Below are positions 25,424 to 33,321 of a DNA stretch of 64,000 bases, piece by piece. A program made the position numbers and the translations under genes. The notes under the pieces are model-generated. The model was given only the letters and a program-made list of their open reading frames with translations. It had not been told where the DNA came from and ran no database searches. Source of the DNA: Alistipes sp. An66 (GTDB lineage Bacteria > Bacteroidota > Bacteroidia > Bacteroidales > Rikenellaceae); contig NZ_NFHT01000010.1 in NCBI RefSeq assembly GCF_002161445.1, forward strand, positions 1-64,000. Direction: 5' to 3'. Within the stretch, counting starts at the first letter, position 1. Each line of letters starts with the position of its first letter.

Positions 25424-25690
25424 GGTTCGGATCAATTTAACGGGTTATACGACAAACGGTTGCAGCAGCACCGAAGCAACATCGGTTACGATCCGGAAGT
25501 GCGGGTCGGGCGGCAGCGGGCCGCCTGGGCCTCCGGCATCGGGCAACAATCTGGCGGTAAAGATACTAAAAACTCTTAAAAACTGCAACTCCCCGCGCCG
25601 AAAGAGCGTGCCGCCTCCGGATCGGACGATCTGTAATCCATGCAGAACGGGCCGACACGGCCTCCGGGCGACGATTTTTCCGCCAAAGAT

Positions 25691-25721
25691 TTTGTTTTTC
25701 GGCGAAAAAAGATTATATTTG
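25691..25721 (+). promoter_or_regulatory. Promoter of the histidine operon
   Basis: TTTG (25691-25694), a 19-base spacer and TATATTTG (25714-25721) are a full consensus match. The start of the leader peptide lies only 20 bases downstream, so the 5' end of the transcript is short. No gene is seen in 25424-25690 ahead of it. Confidence 0.85.
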
Positions 25722-25740
25722 TCCCCAACGAACCGAACGT

Positions 25741-25794
25741 ATGACGATTTTCCTCCATATCCATCATCATCACTGCCACTTTACCGAGGGGTAG
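25741..25794 (+). CDS. hisL: Histidine operon leader peptide
   Basis: An ATG at 25741 opens a 17-codon frame, MTIFLHIHHHHCHFTEG, ending with TAG. Six of the 17 residues are histidine, four of them consecutive (codons 8-11). Such a peptide senses charged tRNA-His: ribosomes stall on the His codons when histidine is scarce. It lies between a consensus promoter and a strong terminator (25881-25909), 178 bases before hisG. The match of leader content to operon product is what makes the call strong. The peptide is too short to be tested by similarity. Confidence 0.85.
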   Translation: MTIFLHIHHHHCHFTEG

Positions 25795-25909
25795 ACGATC
25801 ATGTATGGAAGGGGTCAGGAAAAGAGGCCGGGCCGAAAACGGAATCCGGACCGAAACGATAAAAAATACCGACAGACATGAAGCTCACCCCTTGCGGGGT
25901 GGGCTTTTT
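25795..25909 (+). promoter_or_regulatory. Histidine attenuator (antiterminator and terminator)
   Basis: The terminator stem is AAGCTCACCCC (25881-25891) with GGGGTGGGCTT (25896-25906), loop TTGC, ending in a T-run. Its 5' arm can instead pair with AAGGGGT (25809-25815, with ACCCCTT at 25887-25893), giving an antiterminator. A third segment in the leader, TCCATAT (25754-25760, overlapping His codon 6), is complementary to GTATGGA (25803-25809) just ahead of the antiterminator arm. A ribosome stalled at the His codons would cover that segment and favour read-through. Pairings were found by eye. Confidence 0.65.
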
Positions 25910-25971
25910 GTTTGGCACAGCCGCAGGGGAGAGTTTCCGCGAAGGGAACGACAACCAAAAACAGAAACGAT

Positions 25972-26823
25972 ATGTTGAGAATAGCGATTCAGGCCAAGGG
26001 CCGACTGAACGAACAGAGTACGGGTCTGCTTGCGGAGGCAGGCATCCGGGTAGCCGAGAGCAAGCGGAAACTGATCTCGCAGGCCGAAGGTTTTCCGTTG
26101 GAGGTGCTTTACCTTCGGGACGACGACATTCCGCAGGCGGTTGCAATGGGTGTTGCCGATCTGGGGATCGTGGGGCTGAACGAGGTGGCGGAGAAGGGTT
26201 TCCGCGTGGATCAGCTCATGGACCTCGGGTTCGGGGGGTGCCGCATCTCGCTGGCCGTCCCGAAGGGCACGGCATACGAAGGCCCGGAGTATTTCCGGGG
26301 CAGGCGCATTGCGACCTCCTACCCGAACATCCTGACGCGGTACTTCGCCGAGCGGGAGATCGAGGCGGAGATCCACCGCATCGAGGGATCGGTGGAGATC
26401 GCCCCAGCGGTGGGGATGTCGGATGCGATTTTCGACATCGTGTCGTCGGGCGGGACGCTCATCTCGAACGGACTGGTGGAGGTTGAGAAGGTCTTCTTCT
26501 CGGAGGCGGTGCTGATCGCCAACCCGGATCTCGATGCGGAGAAACGGCGCGAGACGGCGCAGCTGACCTTCCGTTTCAACTCGATTCTGGAAAGCCGCGG
26601 GATGAAATACGTGCTGATGAACCTCCCGAAGGAGCGGTTGCAGGAGGCGATCCGGATCCTTCCGGGAATGCGGAGTCCGACAGTCCTGCCGCTGGCGCAG
26701 GAGGGGTGGTGCTCGATCCACGCCGTGATTGCGCAGGAGCAGCTCTGGGAGCGCATCGAGCAGCTGAAAGGGATCGGCGCCGAGGGCATCCTGATCCTGA
26801 ATCTCGAAAACATGATCCGCTAA
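25972..26823 (+). CDS. hisG: ATP phosphoribosyltransferase, long form
   Basis: This 283-residue enzyme catalyses the first committed step of histidine synthesis, joining ATP and PRPP. The catalytic domain starts MLRIAIQAKGRLNEQSTGLLAEAG and contains LGIVGLNEV and the PRPP-binding stretch ISNGLVEVEKVF. The last about 75 residues (KERLQEAIRILPGMRSPTVLPL onward) form the ACT-like allosteric domain for histidine feedback, so this is the long hexameric form with no HisZ needed. The frame is open 20 codons upstream across the attenuator terminator. ATG 25972 matches the conserved N-terminus. Confidence 0.95.
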   Translation: MLRIAIQAKGRLNEQSTGLLAEAGIRVAESKRKLISQAEGFPLEVLYLRDDDIPQAVAMGVADLGIVGLNEVAEKGFRVDQLMDLGFGGCRISLAVPKGTAYEGPEYFRGRRIATSYPNILTRYFAEREIEAEIHRIEGSVEIAPAVGMSDAIFDIVSSGGTLISNGLVEVEKVFFSEAVLIANPDLDAEKRRETAQLTFRFNSILESRGMKYVLMNLPKERLQEAIRILPGMRSPTVLPLAQEGWCSIHAVIAQEQLWERIEQLKGIGAEGILILNLENMIR

Positions 26824-26836
26824 ACGGCAACCGAAC

Positions 26837-28150
26837 ATGGAACGACTCACCATCTACAACCATCCGCCCCGCTCCGAGTGGGGTCGGCTGACCGAACGCT
26901 TCACGCGCCGCGAGGAGGAGATCACCGCACAGGTTGCGGCGATCCTCGCCGAGGTGCGCACGGGCGGGGACCGGGCGCTGCGCGCCCTCACGCAACGCAT
27001 CGAAGGGCGCACGCCCGACCGCTTCGAGGTCCCGGCCGGAGAGCTGCGGGCCGCGGAGAAGGAGCTCTCCGCCGGGTTGAAGGAGGCCTTGACCGCGGCA
27101 AAAGCGAATATCGAGGCCTTCCACCGGGCGCAACTTCCGCTCGAGGTGCGGTGCGAGACACAGCCGGGCGTAACGTGCATCCAGCGTGCGGTTCCGATCC
27201 GCCGCGTGGGGCTCTACATCCCGGGCGGGAAGGCGCCGCTCTTCTCGACGGTGCTGATGCTGGCCGTCCCGGCACGGGCGGCGGGCTGCCGGGAGGTGAT
27301 CCTCTGCACGCCGGCGCGCCTCGACGGAACGATCGCCCCGGAGATCCGCTACGCCGCGCAGCTCTGCGGCGTGGACCGCGTCTTCGCCGTGGGCGGAGCG
27401 CAGGCCGTGGCGGCGATGGCCTACGGCACGGAGAGCATCCCGCGCGTGGACAAGATCTTCGGACCGGGGAACCGCTACGTCACGAAGGCCAAACAGCTGG
27501 TCGGCGCGAACGACGTGGCGGTGGACCTTCCGGCCGGGCCTTCGGAGGTGCTGGTGCTGGCCGACGACGGCGCTTCGCCGGCCTTTGCGGCCGCGGACCT
27601 GCTCTCGCAGGCCGAACACGGGGGCGACAGCCAGGCGGTGCTGGTCTGCGCCTCGATGGAGTTTGCGCTGGCGACGCAGCGGGCCGTCGCGGAGCAGCTG
27701 CGGGAGCGCCGCCGCGGGGAGATCATCCGCGAGTCGCTGCAACAGAGCCGGATCATCGTCCTCGCGGAGCGTGCCGACCGTATCGCCTTCTCGAACGCCT
27801 ACGCCCCGGAACACCTGATCCTCTCGATGGAGGATCCGTGGGAGGCGGCCGCACAGATCACCGATGCCGGGAGTGTCTTCATCGGGCCGTGGTCGCCCGA
27901 AAGCGCCGGGGACTACGCCTCGGGGACGAACCACACGCTGCCGACGGGCGGCTGGGCCCGGGCATACAGCGGCGTGAATACGGACTCGTTCCTGCGGAAG
28001 ATCACCTTCCAGGAGCTGACGCGCGCTGGGCTCGAAGGCCTTGCCCCGACGATCGGGACGATGGCCGAAGCCGAGGGGCTGGACGCCCACGCCGCCGCGG
28101 TGCGCATCCGCCTGCACGCATCCTCCGCCCCAGCTCCCTCCGACGAATAA
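26837..28150 (+). CDS. hisD: Histidinol dehydrogenase
   Basis: This 437-residue zinc enzyme oxidises histidinol to histidine in two NAD-dependent steps, the end of the pathway. Visible family landmarks are the substrate loop YIPGGKAPLFSTVLM near residue 137, GGAQAVAAMAYGT, IFGPGNRYVTKAKQ, LADDGASPAFAAADLLSQAEHGGDS, YAPEHLIL, and TNHTLPTGGWARAYSG. The gene follows hisG by 13 bases. Confidence 0.97.
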   Translation: MERLTIYNHPPRSEWGRLTERFTRREEEITAQVAAILAEVRTGGDRALRALTQRIEGRTPDRFEVPAGELRAAEKELSAGLKEALTAAKANIEAFHRAQLPLEVRCETQPGVTCIQRAVPIRRVGLYIPGGKAPLFSTVLMLAVPARAAGCREVILCTPARLDGTIAPEIRYAAQLCGVDRVFAVGGAQAVAAMAYGTESIPRVDKIFGPGNRYVTKAKQLVGANDVAVDLPAGPSEVLVLADDGASPAFAAADLLSQAEHGGDSQAVLVCASMEFALATQRAVAEQLRERRRGEIIRESLQQSRIIVLAERADRIAFSNAYAPEHLILSMEDPWEAAAQITDAGSVFIGPWSPESAGDYASGTNHTLPTGGWARAYSGVNTDSFLRKITFQELTRAGLEGLAPTIGTMAEAEGLDAHAAAVRIRLHASSAPAPSDE

Positions 28151-28186
28151 CCGACTGCAAAACGCAACATAGCAGACCAACGACCC

Positions 28187-29221
28187 ATGAGACCCCTTGA
28201 AGAACTGGTACGCCCGAACATCCGGGCCCTGAAACCCTACTCCACGGCACGCGACGAATACGCCGGCGGGGCGATCACGACGTGGCTCGACGCCAACGAG
28301 AGCCCCTACGACAACGGGCTGAACCGCTACCCGGACCCGCACCAGCGGGATCTGAAACGCCGGATCGCCGCGCTGAAAGGCGTGCGCGAAGGGCAGATAT
28401 TCCTCGGGAACGGCAGCGACGAGGCGATCGACCTGGCCTACCGGATCTTCTGCCGGCCGGGCGTCGACAACGCCGTGTCGATCGCCCCGACCTACGGCAT
28501 GTACCGCGTGGCGGCCGACACGAACGACGTGGAGCTGCGCGAAGTGGCGCTCGGCGCTGATTTTTCACTGCCAACCGACGCCCTGCTGGCGGCCGCCGAC
28601 GAACGCACGAAACTGCTGTGGCTCTGCTCGCCGAACAACCCCACGGGCAACGCTTTCCCGACCGGAGAGATCGAACGGCTGGTACGGGCATTCGACGGCA
28701 TGGTGGTGCTGGACGAAGCCTACATCGACTTCGCCGCAGGGCCGGGTTTCCTGCCGCGCCTCGACGAATTCCCGAACCTGATCATCCTGCAAACCTTCTC
28801 CAAGGCGTGGGGCATGGCGGGCATCCGTCTCGGCATGGCCTTCGCCGCGGAGCCCGTTGCGGAGCTCTTCGCGCGGGTGAAATACCCCTACAACATCAAC
28901 GGCCCGACGCAGCAGACGGTCGCCGAACGCCTTTCGGCCGACATCGCGCCGCAGGTCGCCGAGCTGCGCTCCGAACGCAGCCGCATGGCCCGGGCCCTCG
29001 CAACCTGCCCCACCGTCGAGCGGGTCTACCCTTCCGACGCGAACTTCCTGCTGGTACGCACCGCGGCGCCCGACCGGCTCTACGACGCACTGATCGCCGC
29101 GGGGGTGATCGTCCGCAACCGCTCGCGCATCCCCGGATGCGAGGGATGCCTGCGCATCACCATCGGCCGTCCCGAAGAGAACGACCGCATGCTGCAAACC
29201 GTCCAAACCTTCCGCCCATGA
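28187..29221 (+). CDS. hisC: Histidinol-phosphate aminotransferase
   Basis: This 344-residue pyridoxal phosphate enzyme makes histidinol phosphate from imidazole acetol phosphate and glutamate. LWLCSPNNPTGN, VVLDEAYIDFA, and FSKAWGMAGIRLGMA (with the Schiff-base Lys) identify it. Its length is normal. Its stop codon overlaps the hisB start (ATGA), showing coupled translation in the operon. Confidence 0.96.
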   Translation: MRPLEELVRPNIRALKPYSTARDEYAGGAITTWLDANESPYDNGLNRYPDPHQRDLKRRIAALKGVREGQIFLGNGSDEAIDLAYRIFCRPGVDNAVSIAPTYGMYRVAADTNDVELREVALGADFSLPTDALLAAADERTKLLWLCSPNNPTGNAFPTGEIERLVRAFDGMVVLDEAYIDFAAGPGFLPRLDEFPNLIILQTFSKAWGMAGIRLGMAFAAEPVAELFARVKYPYNINGPTQQTVAERLSADIAPQVAELRSERSRMARALATCPTVERVYPSDANFLLVRTAAPDRLYDALIAAGVIVRNRSRIPGCEGCLRITIGRPEENDRMLQTVQTFRP

Positions 29222-30354
29222 AGCCCATGAAAAAAGCCCTCTTCATCGACCGCGACGGCACGATCCTCGCGGAGCCTGCCGACGAACAGATCGACAGCCT
29301 CGAAAAACTGACCTTTGTTCCCGGGGCGATCTCGGGACTGAAAGCCCTCGCGGGGCTGGATTTCGAGCTGGTGCTGGCCACGAACCAGGACGGCCTGGGG
29401 ACGCCGTCGTTCCCCGAGGAGAACTTCCGGCCGGCACACGAAAAGATGCTCGCGACGCTCGGCGGCGAGGGCATCCGCTTCGACGACGCCCTCATCGACC
29501 GCACCTTCGAACGCGACAACGCCCCGACGCGCAAACCCCGCACGGGGATGTTTTCCCGCTACCTCGACGGGAGTTACGACCTGTCGGCCAGTTACGTCAT
29601 CGGCGACCGCGTGACGGACATTCTGCTGGCGCGCAACCTCGGGGCACGGGGGATCCTGCTCCGTCCGGCGGCCGAAGGCCGGCGGATGGCGGAGGAGGCG
29701 GGGGTCGCGGACGCCTGCGTGCTGGCGACCGACTCGTGGTCGGAGATCGCGGAGTTCATCCGCCGCGGGAAGCGGCGCGTGGAGGTGCGGCGCGAGACGC
29801 GCGAGACGCAGATCCGCGTGCAGCTGGACCTCGACGGGCGGGGCGACTTCAACGACCGCATCGCGACGGGACTGCGCTTTCTGGACCACATGCTTTCGCA
29901 GATCGCCCACCACGGCGGGGTTTCGCTGGCGGTGGAGGCGCACGGCGACCTCGACGTCGACGAACACCACACCGTGGAGGACGTGGCCATCACGCTGGGC
30001 GAAGCCATCGACCGGGCGCTGGGCTCGAAGGCCGGAATCGCACGCTACGGTTTCGCGCTGCCGATGGACGACTGCCGGGCGCTGGTGCTGCTCGACTTCG
30101 GCGGGCGGATCGACTTCGAGTGGGAGGCGGAGTTCCGCCGCGAGCGGGTGGGCGACGTCCCGACGGAGCTGTTCCGCCACTTCTTCCAGTCGCTGTGCTG
30201 CGCCGCACGGTGCAACCTGCAAATCGCGGCCCGCGGCGAGAACGACCACCACAAGGCCGAAGCGATCTTCAAGGCCTTCGCCCGGGCGCTTCGCATGGCC
30301 GTACAGCGGCAAGGCTTCGGATACGACATACCCAGCAGCAAAGGAGTCCTATGA
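29218..30354 (+). CDS. hisB: Bifunctional histidinol-phosphatase / imidazoleglycerol-phosphate dehydratase
   Basis: This 378-residue fusion protein catalyses two pathway steps. Residues about 1-165 are a HAD-type phosphatase (FIDRDGTILAEP with the two Asp, later GDRVTDILLARNLGARGI). Residues about 178-378 are the dehydratase, with the HHTVEDVAI and ENDHHKAEAIFKAFARAL manganese motifs. The fused arrangement is the enterobacterial type and is common in Bacteroidota. ATG 29218 overlaps the hisC stop; ATG 29227 is an alternative two codons on. The stop overlaps hisH. Confidence 0.96.
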   Translation: MKPMKKALFIDRDGTILAEPADEQIDSLEKLTFVPGAISGLKALAGLDFELVLATNQDGLGTPSFPEENFRPAHEKMLATLGGEGIRFDDALIDRTFERDNAPTRKPRTGMFSRYLDGSYDLSASYVIGDRVTDILLARNLGARGILLRPAAEGRRMAEEAGVADACVLATDSWSEIAEFIRRGKRRVEVRRETRETQIRVQLDLDGRGDFNDRIATGLRFLDHMLSQIAHHGGVSLAVEAHGDLDVDEHHTVEDVAITLGEAIDRALGSKAGIARYGFALPMDDCRALVLLDFGGRIDFEWEAEFRRERVGDVPTELFRHFFQSLCCAARCNLQIAARGENDHHKAEAIFKAFARALRMAVQRQGFGYDIPSSKGVL

Positions 30355-31025
30355 TAGCCGTTGTCGATTACGATACGGGCAACCTGCGCTCGGTTGCCGA
30401 TGCGCTCCGGCGGGCCGGAGCGGAGTTCACGCTCACAGCCGCCCCGGCCGTGCTGCGCGCCGCCGACCGGGTGATCCTCCCGGGTGTGGGCGAAGCGTCA
30501 AGCGCCATGGCGAAGCTGCGGGAGCGGGGTCTGGACAGCGTGATCCCGGCGCTCACGTGCCCCGTTCTGGGGATCTGCATCGGGATGCAGCTCATGTGCC
30601 TTTCGAGCGAGGAGGGCGACGCCGAATGCCTGGGGATCTTCCCCACGCGGGTGCGCCGCCTCGACGCCGATCCGGAATTTGCATCTGTTTGCGGCGGGCA
30701 TCCGGAACGTCCCGATGCGGACAGCCGCACCGCCGCTCCGGAGGGCACGCCGGCCGCATCCCGGCTGAAAGTGCCCCATGTGGGATGGAATACGGTCACG
30801 GCATTGCGCACGCCGCTCTTCTCGGGGCTTCCGGAGGAGAGCTACGTCTACTACGTGCACTCCTATGCGGCGGACCTCTGCACGGCGACGGCCGCCACGA
30901 CGGAGTACGGACGGCCGTTCAGCGCGGCGTTAGTGCACGACAACTTCTACGGCACGCAGTTCCACCCCGAGAAGAGCGGCGCGGCGGGAGCGGCCATCAT
31001 TCGGAACTTCCTGACGCTGCGCTGA
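30351..31025 (+). CDS. hisH: Imidazole glycerol phosphate synthase, glutaminase subunit
   Basis: This 224-residue class I glutamine amidotransferase supplies ammonia to HisF. The nucleophile motif PVLGICIGMQLM holds the catalytic Cys near residue 76. YYVHSYAA and NFYGTQFHPEKSG carry the other triad members. The protein is about 20 residues longer than usual because of an insertion between VRRLDADPEFA and KVPHVGWN (residues about 103-140) that is Ala/Pro/Arg-rich. The gene starts on the hisB stop (ATGA). A 173-base gap then separates it from hisA. Confidence 0.95.
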   Translation: MIAVVDYDTGNLRSVADALRRAGAEFTLTAAPAVLRAADRVILPGVGEASSAMAKLRERGLDSVIPALTCPVLGICIGMQLMCLSSEEGDAECLGIFPTRVRRLDADPEFASVCGGHPERPDADSRTAAPEGTPAASRLKVPHVGWNTVTALRTPLFSGLPEESYVYYVHSYAADLCTATAATTEYGRPFSAALVHDNFYGTQFHPEKSGAAGAAIIRNFLTLR

Positions 31026-31198
31026 ACCATTCGGGCCGAAGCATTCCCATAAGCCCCTCCCGAGGGAGGGGTTTGGAGTGGGGTCAGATTTGGAAACGAC
31101 GCCGAAGGCGGCGAGAACGGGACGGCACAGAGGCTTCACCCGGGAATACGCTAAAAACGGGAACAAGATAAAAACGAATTGATCAAATACCTCCAACC
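31026..31198 (+). other. Intra-operon spacer with a strong hairpin
   Basis: AAGCCCCTCCC (31051-31061) pairs with GGGAGGGGTTT (31064-31074), leaving a very short loop. There is no T-run. The sequence around it (GGAGTGGGGTCAGATTTGG) does not code. It may be an RNA processing or stabilising element, or a small interspersed repeat. Confidence 0.45.
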
Positions 31199-31930
31199 AT
31201 GAACATCACCATCATACCCGCTACGGACCTGATCGACGGACAATGCGTGCGGCTGACGCAGGGCGACTATGCCAGCCGGAAGACCTACTACCGCGACCCG
31301 CTCGAAGCGGCCCTGCGCTTCGAGGAGGCGGGGATCCGGCGCCTGCACATGGTCGACCTCGACGGCGCGAAGGCCTCCGAACCGCGGAACCTCCGGGTGC
31401 TGGAACGCGTGGCGACGCGCACCTCGCTCGAAGTGCAGTATGGCGGCGGCATCAAGAGCCGCGAGGCGCTCCAAAGCGTCTTCAACGCCGGGGCGCGGCG
31501 GGCCATCTGCGGCAGCATCGCCGTGCGGCAGCCGGAGCTTTTCGCCCGGTGGCTCACGGAGTTCGGACCCGAACGGCTGATCCTCGGCGCCGACATCCGC
31601 GACGGAAAGGTCGCCGTGCAGGGGTGGCTCGAAACCGCCCCGACAACGGCCGAGGAGCTGATCGGACAATTTCAGCCGCAGGGCGTTGCGCAGGTTATCT
31701 GCACCGACATTTCACGCGACGGCATGCTCTGCGGCCCCTCGGCGGCGTTCTACGCCGCGCTGCAACAGCGATTCCCGACGGTCGAGATCACCGTCAGCGG
31801 GGGGATTTCGTCGCTGGACGACATCCGCCGGCTCGACGAACGGGGGCTGCGGAGCGTCATCGTCGGCAAGGCGCTCTACGAAGGACGTATCACCCTTGAA
31901 GAACTCGGACGATGCTTGCGAAACGGATAA
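31199..31930 (+). CDS. hisA: Phosphoribosylformimino-5-aminoimidazole carboxamide ribotide isomerase
   Basis: This 243-residue TIM-barrel isomerase catalyses the Amadori rearrangement in histidine synthesis. The N-terminal [20 protein letters not shown] contains the catalytic Asp. [11 protein letters not shown] and [15 protein letters not shown] carry phosphate-binding and second-Asp motifs. Its half-barrel similarity to HisF is visible. The last 19 bases overlap hisF. Confidence 0.96.
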
Positions 31931-32664
31931 TACCCTGCCTGGACATCCGTGACGGCCAGACCGTCAAGGGAATCCACTTCGAGGGGCTGCGGCAGGTCGG
32001 CGACCCCGTGGAGCTGGGGGCGAAATACGCCGCACAGGGCGCCGACGAACTGGTTTATCTCGATATCAGCGCCTCGGAGGAGGGGCGCCGGACCTTCACC
32101 GAACTGGTCACCCGCATCGCCGCACGCATCGACATCCCGTTCACCGTCGGGGGCGGCATCTCGTCGGTGGAGGATGCCGGGCGGCTGCTCGACGCCGGGG
32201 CCGACAAGGTGACGGTCAACAGCGCCGCGGTGCGCAACCCCGCGCTGATCGACGCCATCGCCGCCCGCTACGGTTCGCAGTTCGTCGTGGCGGCGATCGA
32301 CGCGCGGCAGGTCGACGGCCGCTGGGTCGTGACGACCCACGGCGGCAAGCGCCCCACCGACCGCGAACTCTTCACATGGGCCCGGGAGGCCGTCGAACGC
32401 GGCGCCGGCGAGATCCTCTTCACCTCGATGGACCACGACGGCACGAAGAACGGATACCCGTGCGAGACCTTCGCGCAACTGGCCGAACTGCCCGTGCCGA
32501 TCATCGCCTCGGGCGGCGCCGGAAGCGTCGGCCACATCGCCGAGGTCCTCACCCGCGGACGCGCCGACGCCGCGCTGGCCGCCAGCATCTTCCATTACGA
32601 CGAGATCCCGATCCCCGTCCTGAAACGCGAGTTGGACAGGCGGGGCATCCCCGTCCGACTTTGA
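31912..32664 (+). CDS. hisF: Imidazole glycerol phosphate synthase, cyclase subunit
   Basis: This 250-residue TIM barrel uses HisH-derived ammonia to close the imidazole ring. [17 protein letters not shown] carries the catalytic Asp near residue 11. [27 protein letters not shown] and [15 protein letters not shown] carry the second catalytic Asp and phosphate sites. The start overlaps hisA by 19 bases, which is typical for this pair. Confidence 0.97.
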
Positions 32665-32700
32665 AACGAACAGATACAAAAACATAAAATCACGAAGGCC

Positions 32701-33321
32701 ATGAAGATTCAAGCTGTTCCGTTCGCGGAACTCAACCTCGAAAAACTCCCCGACGGGCTCGTTCCCGCCGTCATCCAGGACGCCCGCACGCTGCAAGTGC
32801 TCATGCTCGGGTACATGAACCGCGAAGCCTACGAGAAGAGCCTCGCCGAAGGCCGCGTCACCTTTTACAGCCGCTCGCGGCAGTGCCTCTGGACCAAAGG
32901 CGAAACCAGCGGCCACTGGCTCGACATCGTCTCGGTGGCTGCCGACTGCGACGCCGACACGCTGCTCGTGCGCGTCATCCCTCACGGCCCCACCTGCCAC
33001 ACCGGATCGAAAACCTGTTTCGGAGAGGCCGTACCCGAGACCGAAGGCTTCATCCGCTACCTGCAAGGCGTCATCCAGGGCCGCCACGCCGAGATGCCCG
33101 AAGGCTCCTATACCTCGAAACTCTTCACGCGCGGCGTCAACAAGATCGCCCAAAAGGTCGGCGAAGAGGCCGTCGAGACGGTCATCGAAGCCGTGGCCGG
33201 GAACCGCGACGCCATGATCTACGAGGCCTCGGACCTCGTCTACCACCTGCTCGTGCTGCTCGAAGCCACCGGTTGCTCGATCGCCGACCTCGAACGCGAG
33301 CTGGCCCGCCGCCACTCCTGA
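32701..33321 (+). CDS. hisIE: Bifunctional phosphoribosyl-AMP cyclohydrolase / phosphoribosyl-ATP pyrophosphohydrolase
   Basis: This 206-residue fusion carries out steps two and three of the pathway. The N-terminal HisI domain (residues about 1-115) has RSRQCLWTKGETSGHWLDIV and DCDADTLLVRVIPHGPTCHTG, including zinc-binding Cys residues. The C-terminal HisE domain has YTSKLFTRGVNKIAQKVGEEAVETVIEA and a DLVYHLLVLL segment. It is the last gene of the operon and is followed by a terminator at 33374-33418. Confidence 0.96.
   Translation: MKIQAVPFAELNLEKLPDGLVPAVIQDARTLQVLMLGYMNREAYEKSLAEGRVTFYSRSRQCLWTKGETSGHWLDIVSVAADCDADTLLVRVIPHGPTCHTGSKTCFGEAVPETEGFIRYLQGVIQGRHAEMPEGSYTSKLFTRGVNKIAQKVGEEAVETVIEAVAGNRDAMIYEASDLVYHLLVLLEATGCSIADLERELARRHS

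Follow-up and report, generated by a model that had tools for sequence, protein, structure and literature searches.

A histidine-codon leader and predicted ribosome-mediated attenuator upstream of hisG in Alistipes and elsewhere in the Bacteroidota

How is histidine synthesis controlled where a complete his operon is preceded by a short reading frame crowded with histidine codons? The operon concerned, hisG-hisD-hisC-hisB-hisH-hisA-hisF-hisIE (25972-33321, + strand), lies in a 64,000-nucleotide stretch of the Alistipes sp. An66 genome, hereafter the window, to which all coordinates refer. Its first gene, hisG (25972-26823), was identified through TIGR00070 (2.3e-58) and TIGR03455; hisD, hisC, bifunctional hisB, hisH, hisA, hisF and hisIE follow at 26837-33321, all on the + strand. 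A sequence-only reading had placed a promoter, a leader of 17 codons (six of them His) and a terminator ahead of hisG, and direct inspection finds them all there. The leader micro-ORF, MTIFLHIHHHHCHFTEG (25741-25794, + strand), runs from ATG at 25741 to the stop codon TAG at 25792-25794 and carries His at codons 6, 8-11 and 13 (25756-25779), to which sequence and folds alike point as the regulatory codons. The intrinsic terminator (25880-25913, + strand) is made up of a 12-bp helix, 25880-25891/25896-25907, and a T tract at 25905-25909, closely matching the 25881-25909 originally proposed; the hairpin, with its T tract, lies 64 nt upstream of hisG. The RNA corresponding to 25725-25915 folds with an energy of -68.1 kcal/mol (z = -4.05 against 200 dinucleotide shuffles). 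Bare runs of His codons are no rarity in this genome, in which the four-CAY-codon pattern CAYCAYCAYCAY has 31 matches (overlapping matches counted) compared to 5 for the reversed pattern; the special feature is its placement before hisG.

The promoter (25691-25721, + strand) consists of TTTG at 25691-25694, a 19-nt spacer and TATATTTG at 25714-25721, a combination that we take to be the Bacteroidota consensus. Its assignment to this type is borne out by relatives: TAnnTTTG occurs no more than 80 nt upstream of the leader at the window's own locus, at 35 of 36 loci of the genus, 41/53 in the rest of the order, 19/28 in other orders of the class and 23/49 in other classes of the phylum, the corresponding figures for reversed sequences being 0, 1, 5, 2 and 2. 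The median distance from the end of the promoter box to the start codon in the genus is 19 nt. The leader had also been said to lack a Shine-Dalgarno sequence, and none is present in the 13 nt scanned 5' of the start codon. Shine-Dalgarno-like words are similarly scarce at the other leaders (genus 1/36, order 1/54, class 0/28, phylum 2/49; own 0/1), which fits the Shine-Dalgarno-independent initiation of Bacteroidota ribosomes described in the relevant parts of PMC6847099 and PMC9976891.

Searches for hisG, used to assess the distribution of the leader, succeeded in 44 of the 180 genomes searched within the window's genus, 54 of 150 relatives and 325 of 392 genomes from across the phylum; part of these hits were fetched. 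Among 240 hisG loci with kinship labels, 2 gave no tblastn match; of the remaining 238, 2 had less than 200 nt upstream and 19 were repeats, leaving 217 distinct upstream regions. Four or more His within eight codons of a micro-ORF are seen at the window's own locus and at 33 of 36 genus loci (34/37 together), in 50/96 other Bacteroidales, 25/28 from other orders of the class and 47/56 from other classes. Neither loss of the micro-ORF nor free drift of its His codons, the outcomes that it had been suggested to look for among relatives, is seen within the genus, where the three other loci each have three His. Dinucleotide-shuffled upstream regions reach four His in only 6 of 2660 cases, and three in 4.4%. 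In the real regions of the own, genus and order levels His stands far ahead (84/133), Leu coming next (23/133), and the leader peptides vary widely in everything except their His residues.

Record titles, available for 80 loci that are the best 80 of 133 matches and counted for 78 of them, give a finer picture, the titles of metagenome-assembled genomes being uncurated taxonomy. The His leader occurs in 18/18 Alistipes close to the window, 4/4 Tidjanibacter, Cryptobacteroides or Cacconaster, 7/9 Rikenellaceae-titled, 2/5 distant Alistipes-titled, 8/17 unplaced Bacteroidales and 0/1 Clostridiales-titled loci, as well as in 1/12 Muribaculaceae or Duncaniella, 0/7 Bacteroidaceae, Bacteroides or Prevotellamassilia and 0/5 Porphyromonadaceae-titled loci. 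The leader is thus found widely in the phylum, with an apparent gap in one branch of the gut Bacteroidales. Specifically, no micro-ORF with at least four His in eight codons lies within 400 nt of hisG in the Muribaculaceae-, Bacteroides- and Porphyromonadaceae-titled loci L061, L063-L065, L074, L080, L081, L083 and L084, nor at L086-L088, L090, L095, L097, L102, L104, L109 and L110. At hisG loci with such titles that have no His leader some other form of control, or none, must act.

Is the terminator conserved along with the leader? Loci with at least three His were retained for this count (at least four at order level, plus L003, L073, L085 and L236 by hand), giving 1, 36, 54, 28 and 49 loci at the own, genus, order, class and phylum levels; those left out for too few His numbered 42/96 in the order and 7/56 in the phylum. 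In 1/1, 36/36, 51/54, 19/28 and 23/49 of these loci, respectively, the spacer between leader and hisG contains a T-tract terminator whose hairpin reaches -12 kcal/mol or better, whereas a single shuffled spacer per locus yielded one such terminator, at order level, and none elsewhere. The window's own spacer, from leader stop codon to hairpin, measures 85 nt and is longer than in 34 of the 36 genus loci. At phylum level (non-Bacteroidia), 21 of 49 loci have no terminator even of -8 kcal/mol or better. Loci with a His leader before hisG and no convincing intrinsic terminator include L153-L159, L165, L167 and L169, which belong to a family (f83) outside the window's class, and also L171, L175, L239 and L259. 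The leader peptides of f83 share a core, VHHAHxGHH in 9 of 10 loci (VRHAHQGHH in L157), followed by pyrimidine-rich sequence; a common structure was looked for in this family and none was found.

An attenuator requires a partner that competes for the terminator, and side-by-side comparison of the loci shows the terminator 5' arm to be complementary to bases where the leader ORF ends. The leader of many Rikenellaceae and other Bacteroidales closes with GG[UAG]GUC or GG[UAA]GC opposite GGCUUACC, in another group CUCAAGCG lies opposite CGUUUGAG, and in many non-Bacteroidia GCCGG words face CCGGC; clades use unrelated complementary words in one layout. Duplex, covariation and fold tests were applied to the 137 loci whose terminator reaches -8 kcal/mol or better (own 1, genus 36, order 51, class 21, phylum 28). 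Mean duplex energies for a locus's own pair, for swapped partners and for shuffled sequences were -9.8, -7.3 and -9.9 at the window's own locus, -10.2, -8.6 and -8.0 in the genus, -10.3, -8.2 and -7.0 in the order, -10.7, -8.2 and -6.3 in the class, and -7.9, -6.5 and -4.6 in the phylum; over the 137 loci, own pairs differ from shuffled means with a Wilcoxon p of 6e-20. Individually the short duplex is significant in 70/137 loci (own 0/1, genus 14/36, order 27/51, class 15/21, phylum 14/28). It does not beat shuffles in the window's own sub-clade, with leaders of the type MTIFxHIHHH and similar (own p 0.53), and was therefore abandoned as the sole test; support for an antiterminator in that sub-clade comes instead from the longer stalled-state fold considered below.

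Counted from genus to phylum over the 70 significant loci, strand and stop codon overlap in 14/14, 18/27, 7/15 and 2/14 cases; the strand ends before the stop codon in 0, 2, 8 and 11 and begins after it in 0, 7, 0 and 1. It is separated from the last His codon by a median of 15 nt (3-18 for the 10-90% range), just past the assumed 12-nt ribosome footprint. Covariation was measured in the 66 of the 137 loci that show the searched words, the rest lying outside this register. The base next to GG[stop] is paired with the terminator arm in 49/66 loci, compared with a mean of 27.6 and a maximum of 44 in 5000 shuffles, which ignore relatedness, and all four Watson-Crick pairs are represented (GC 20, CG 8, AT 8, TA 7, with GT 5 and TG 1; 17/66 unpaired). 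Dereplication leaves 39/55 paired (shuffle mean 22.2, maximum 34). The next position is weaker, with 40/66 (mean 29.7, maximum 41), or 31/55 when dereplicated (mean 22.9, maximum 34). The proposal to align hisG upstream regions in search of His micro-ORFs and covarying stems has thus yielded both.

The modelled behaviour of the nascent RNA was expressed as the cost of freeing the terminator 5' arm in each of the 137 loci, with a 12-nt ribosome footprint. For a ribosome stalled in the middle of the His codons, a ribosome at the stop codon, no ribosome, and a stalled ribosome with a shuffled spacer, the values in kcal/mol were, respectively, 17.1, 9.7, 1.3 and 6.8 for the window's own locus, 11.9, 2.3, 3.2 and 5.7 for the genus (36 loci), 10.0, 2.2, 3.9 and 4.5 for the order (51), 10.0, 1.8, 3.6 and 4.1 for the class (21), and 9.6, 0.9, 4.3 and 3.1 for the phylum (28). 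The stalled state differs from each of the three other conditions with a Wilcoxon p of about 1e-23, a figure to be read with the non-independence of related loci in mind. Compared individually with 40 shuffled spacers, p is 0.05 or less in 1/1, 27/36, 37/51, 18/21 and 22/28 loci from own to phylum level, and the stalled state exceeds the stop state by at least 3 kcal in 1/1, 36/36, 44/51, 19/20 and 26/27; this difference persists when the footprint is varied from 9 to 15 nt, and is reached by just 2 of 40 ordinary gene-end terminators. In the folds of the window itself, 25785-25804 is exposed and can pair with 25876-25894 when any of His codons 6-11 occupies the ribosomal A site, and a ribosome at His 13 or at the stop codon covers it. 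In silico, stalling thus frees the antiterminator strand and a ribosome at the stop codon blocks it; covariation and folds together indicate a mutually exclusive antiterminator kept by selection.

With no ribosome, the window's own fold contains a putative protector hairpin (25761-25808, + strand), in which 25761-25771 pairs with 25797-25808 and, inside it, 25773-25782 pairs with 25786-25794, part of the antiterminator strand. The low arm-opening energy in the absence of a ribosome agrees with this structure. Direct pairing of His codons with sequence after the stop codon is significant in 0/1, 2/36, 8/51, 6/20 and 0/27 loci from own to phylum level, weak duplex-energy support that led us to drop it as a general element and to keep it as a putative arrangement of the window's fold. 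The pairing suggested earlier, TCCATAT (25754-25760) with GTATGGA (25803-25809), is correct as complementarity, and the His codons do pair downstream, although in the different register just given.

These observations very probably describe a transcription attenuator in which the ribosome serves as sensor of charged tRNA-His, as judged from sequence conservation and modelling: codons for the end product are clustered in a leader ORF, and an intrinsic terminator separates this ORF from the first gene. RNA polymerase would start about 15 nt before the leader ATG, a position deduced from the -7 box, and a ribosome would load without a Shine-Dalgarno and trail the polymerase, its positions likewise being deduced. 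Were His-tRNA scarce, the ribosome would stall at His codons 6-11, 25785-25804 would pair with the terminator 5' arm and hisG-hisIE would be transcribed. Were it plentiful, a ribosome at the stop codon would cover 25785-25804, allowing the 25880-25907 hairpin to form and transcription to end at about 25910. Without a ribosome, the His-codon region would pair with 25797-25808 and the antiterminator strand be held inside that hairpin. The response of the switch to histidine is what we infer from these states. The three-state logic of the sequence-only reading accordingly finds support from conservation, structure modelling and covariation, and that reading is partly supported as a whole, its choice of antiterminator being the main departure. 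The window's layout is nearer the three-strand trp-type switch than the multi-hairpin his leader of enterobacteria.

That choice was AAGGGGT (25809-25815, + strand), paired with ACCCCTT (25887-25893) in the terminator arm of what would otherwise be the same attenuator. The two words are indeed complementary, and their pairing appears in the nascent folds of the window with no ribosome or with one at His 13 or the stop codon; in the at-stop and no-ribosome folds it would oppose termination. The ribosome, however, leaves AAGGGGT exposed in both histidine states; GGGGT is found in the spacer of just 1 of the 37 own and genus loci, and folds stalled at His 6-11 employ 25785-25804 instead. Conservation and the stalled-state folds therefore led us to reject AAGGGGT as the working antiterminator, a role that we deem improbable, and the conserved strand, as predicted from covariation and folds, is the one that takes in the leader's final codons and stop codon, here 25785-25804 (+ strand). 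This second GGGGT copy is peculiar to the window's genome, the word AGGGG occurring also in L035, and the folds predict that it makes termination less efficient while the ribosome sits at the stop codon. The switch is in fact incomplete here, the at-stop state still having competing pairing worth 9.7 kcal/mol (genus mean 2.3), so that termination in this genome may be leaky.

Control mainly at hisG translation or via Rho, with the hairpin incidental, would suit those non-Bacteroidia in which a His leader has no intrinsic terminator at -8 kcal/mol (21/49), but a hairpin and T tract before hisG, 64 nt upstream in the window, are kept in 37/37 own and genus loci and the alternative pairing targets the terminator arm itself; we consider this very improbable. 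Still harder to credit is a micro-ORF encoding a functional His-rich peptide, for example a metal-binding one, or arising by chance. Four-His runs are, as noted, not rare in the genome (31 matches), but the peptide varies widely apart from His, its position before hisG recurs across the phylum, and leaders with Phe/Tyr before pheA and with Trp before some trpE genes obey the same rule.

Leaders before three further genes were examined. The pheA gene was found in 35 of 61 genomes, and 30 loci were taken, of which 3 were skipped for an incomplete flank. All 27 loci analysed have a micro-ORF with at least six Phe+Tyr in ten codons (15/1080 shuffles) and a terminator at least as stable as -10.9 kcal/mol, the latter a count made without a shuffled comparison. 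Phe alone is a poor statistic in such T-rich regions, since at least three Phe in ten codons arise in 499/1080 shuffles; Phe+Tyr separates the two. In the window's genome, which is among those 27, the leader MRLHGFAYFFYYFFFHARRESGTVCI and a -17 kcal/mol terminator precede pheA (L320 and L339; contig C1, 417880-418416, minus strand) and a gene that looks from its sequence like a DAHP synthase/chorismate mutase. A mixed leader of this kind may sense both amino acids. WWW leaders precede trpE at 6 of 12 loci of other Bacteroidales families (L323, L325-L329), five of the six having a strong terminator, again counted without a shuffled comparison; a search for the TrpE N-terminal domain gave no match in the window's genome. 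Clear Leu/Ile/Val-type leaders with terminators precede leuA in 2 of 10 loci analysed (L214 and L219), and also at L221, on the plus strand and outside the ten. The leaders of L214, L219 and L221, from three other Bacteroidales families, are Leu/Ile-rich. None was found before leuA in the scanned stretches of the window's genome.

The mechanism itself is classical and already known. The enterobacterial his attenuator (RF00514), as treated in the portion of PMC9413887 concerned with it, has the same His-codon leader, terminator before hisG, alternative antiterminator and use of ribosome position as sensor. The window's leader differs in having no Shine-Dalgarno, a Bacteroidota promoter and an antiterminator strand on the stop codon. 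RF00514 is absent from the window's gathering-threshold Rfam matches, which are all tRNAs, and from matches at E<=5 for 25600-26000, and it has no gathering-threshold match among 20 loci (13 of them hisG loci). Five weak matches below threshold fall in 25600-26000, among them Phe_leader at 17.9 bits and Thr_leader at 16.4 bits (cut-offs 55); no T-box or other Rfam riboswitch matches upstream of hisG in either search. Bacteroid-trp (RF01692), listed in Table 1 of PMC2864571, is likewise a Bacteroidetes peptide leader RNA in Rfam, but belongs to the Trp operon with Trp codons and has no match to the window's his leader in the gathering list or at E<=5 for 25600-26000; it matches 2 of 7 trpE loci below its cut-off of 49 bits (L326 41.7, L325 35.8). 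The His attenuators of Firmicutes belong to another phylum and have other sequences. Lopatovskaya et al. (2010), a work cited in PMC4833913, may hold related predictions.

Nearest to our locus among the open-access literature matches listed, none of which describes a His-codon attenuator in Bacteroidales, is a 2021 study of Flavobacterium psychrophilum (PMC9723704). The section concerned reports strong clues for leader-peptide attenuation before amino-acid operons and, separately, lists conserved elements in the 5' regions of pheA and hisG in this species and other Flavobacteriaceae; it covers one family, and contains no His leader peptide, antiterminator logic, Bacteroidales or phylum-wide scope. 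The main text of PMC9413887 does not contain 'Bacteroid'. A 2021 superphylum-wide survey of his genes mentions attenuation once in the passages concerned, for E. coli and S. enterica, and a 2020 map of Bacteroides thetaiotaomicron (PMC7366714) describes sORFs reminiscent of leader peptides in a main text from which 'histidine' is absent. Within the reach of these searches, what is new is the occurrence of the His leader with its switch in Bacteroidales, its extent across the phylum, the covarying antiterminator at the stop codon and the apparent loss from one branch of gut bacteria.

We incline slightly towards a broader view, in which leader-peptide attenuation would be the ancestral Bacteroidota control of the his, phe/tyr and, in part, trp operons, operating without Shine-Dalgarno sequences; the his switch would have been lost in the Bacteroidaceae/Muribaculaceae branch, and one non-Bacteroidia family would have swapped the terminator for another read-out. 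That branch includes common laboratory models, Bacteroides thetaiotaomicron itself lying outside the loci examined. If the ancestral reading is true, attenuation without Shine-Dalgarno initiation implies that ribosomes follow RNA polymerase closely in Bacteroidota. The mechanism needs prompt initiation on the nascent leader and a ribosome near the polymerase, which makes transcription-translation coupling in Bacteroidota directly testable. It also offers a basis for new Rfam families and a natural comparison of lineages with the switch and apparently without it, and the locus provides a predicted control point, its bases named, for histidine synthesis in common gut bacteria.
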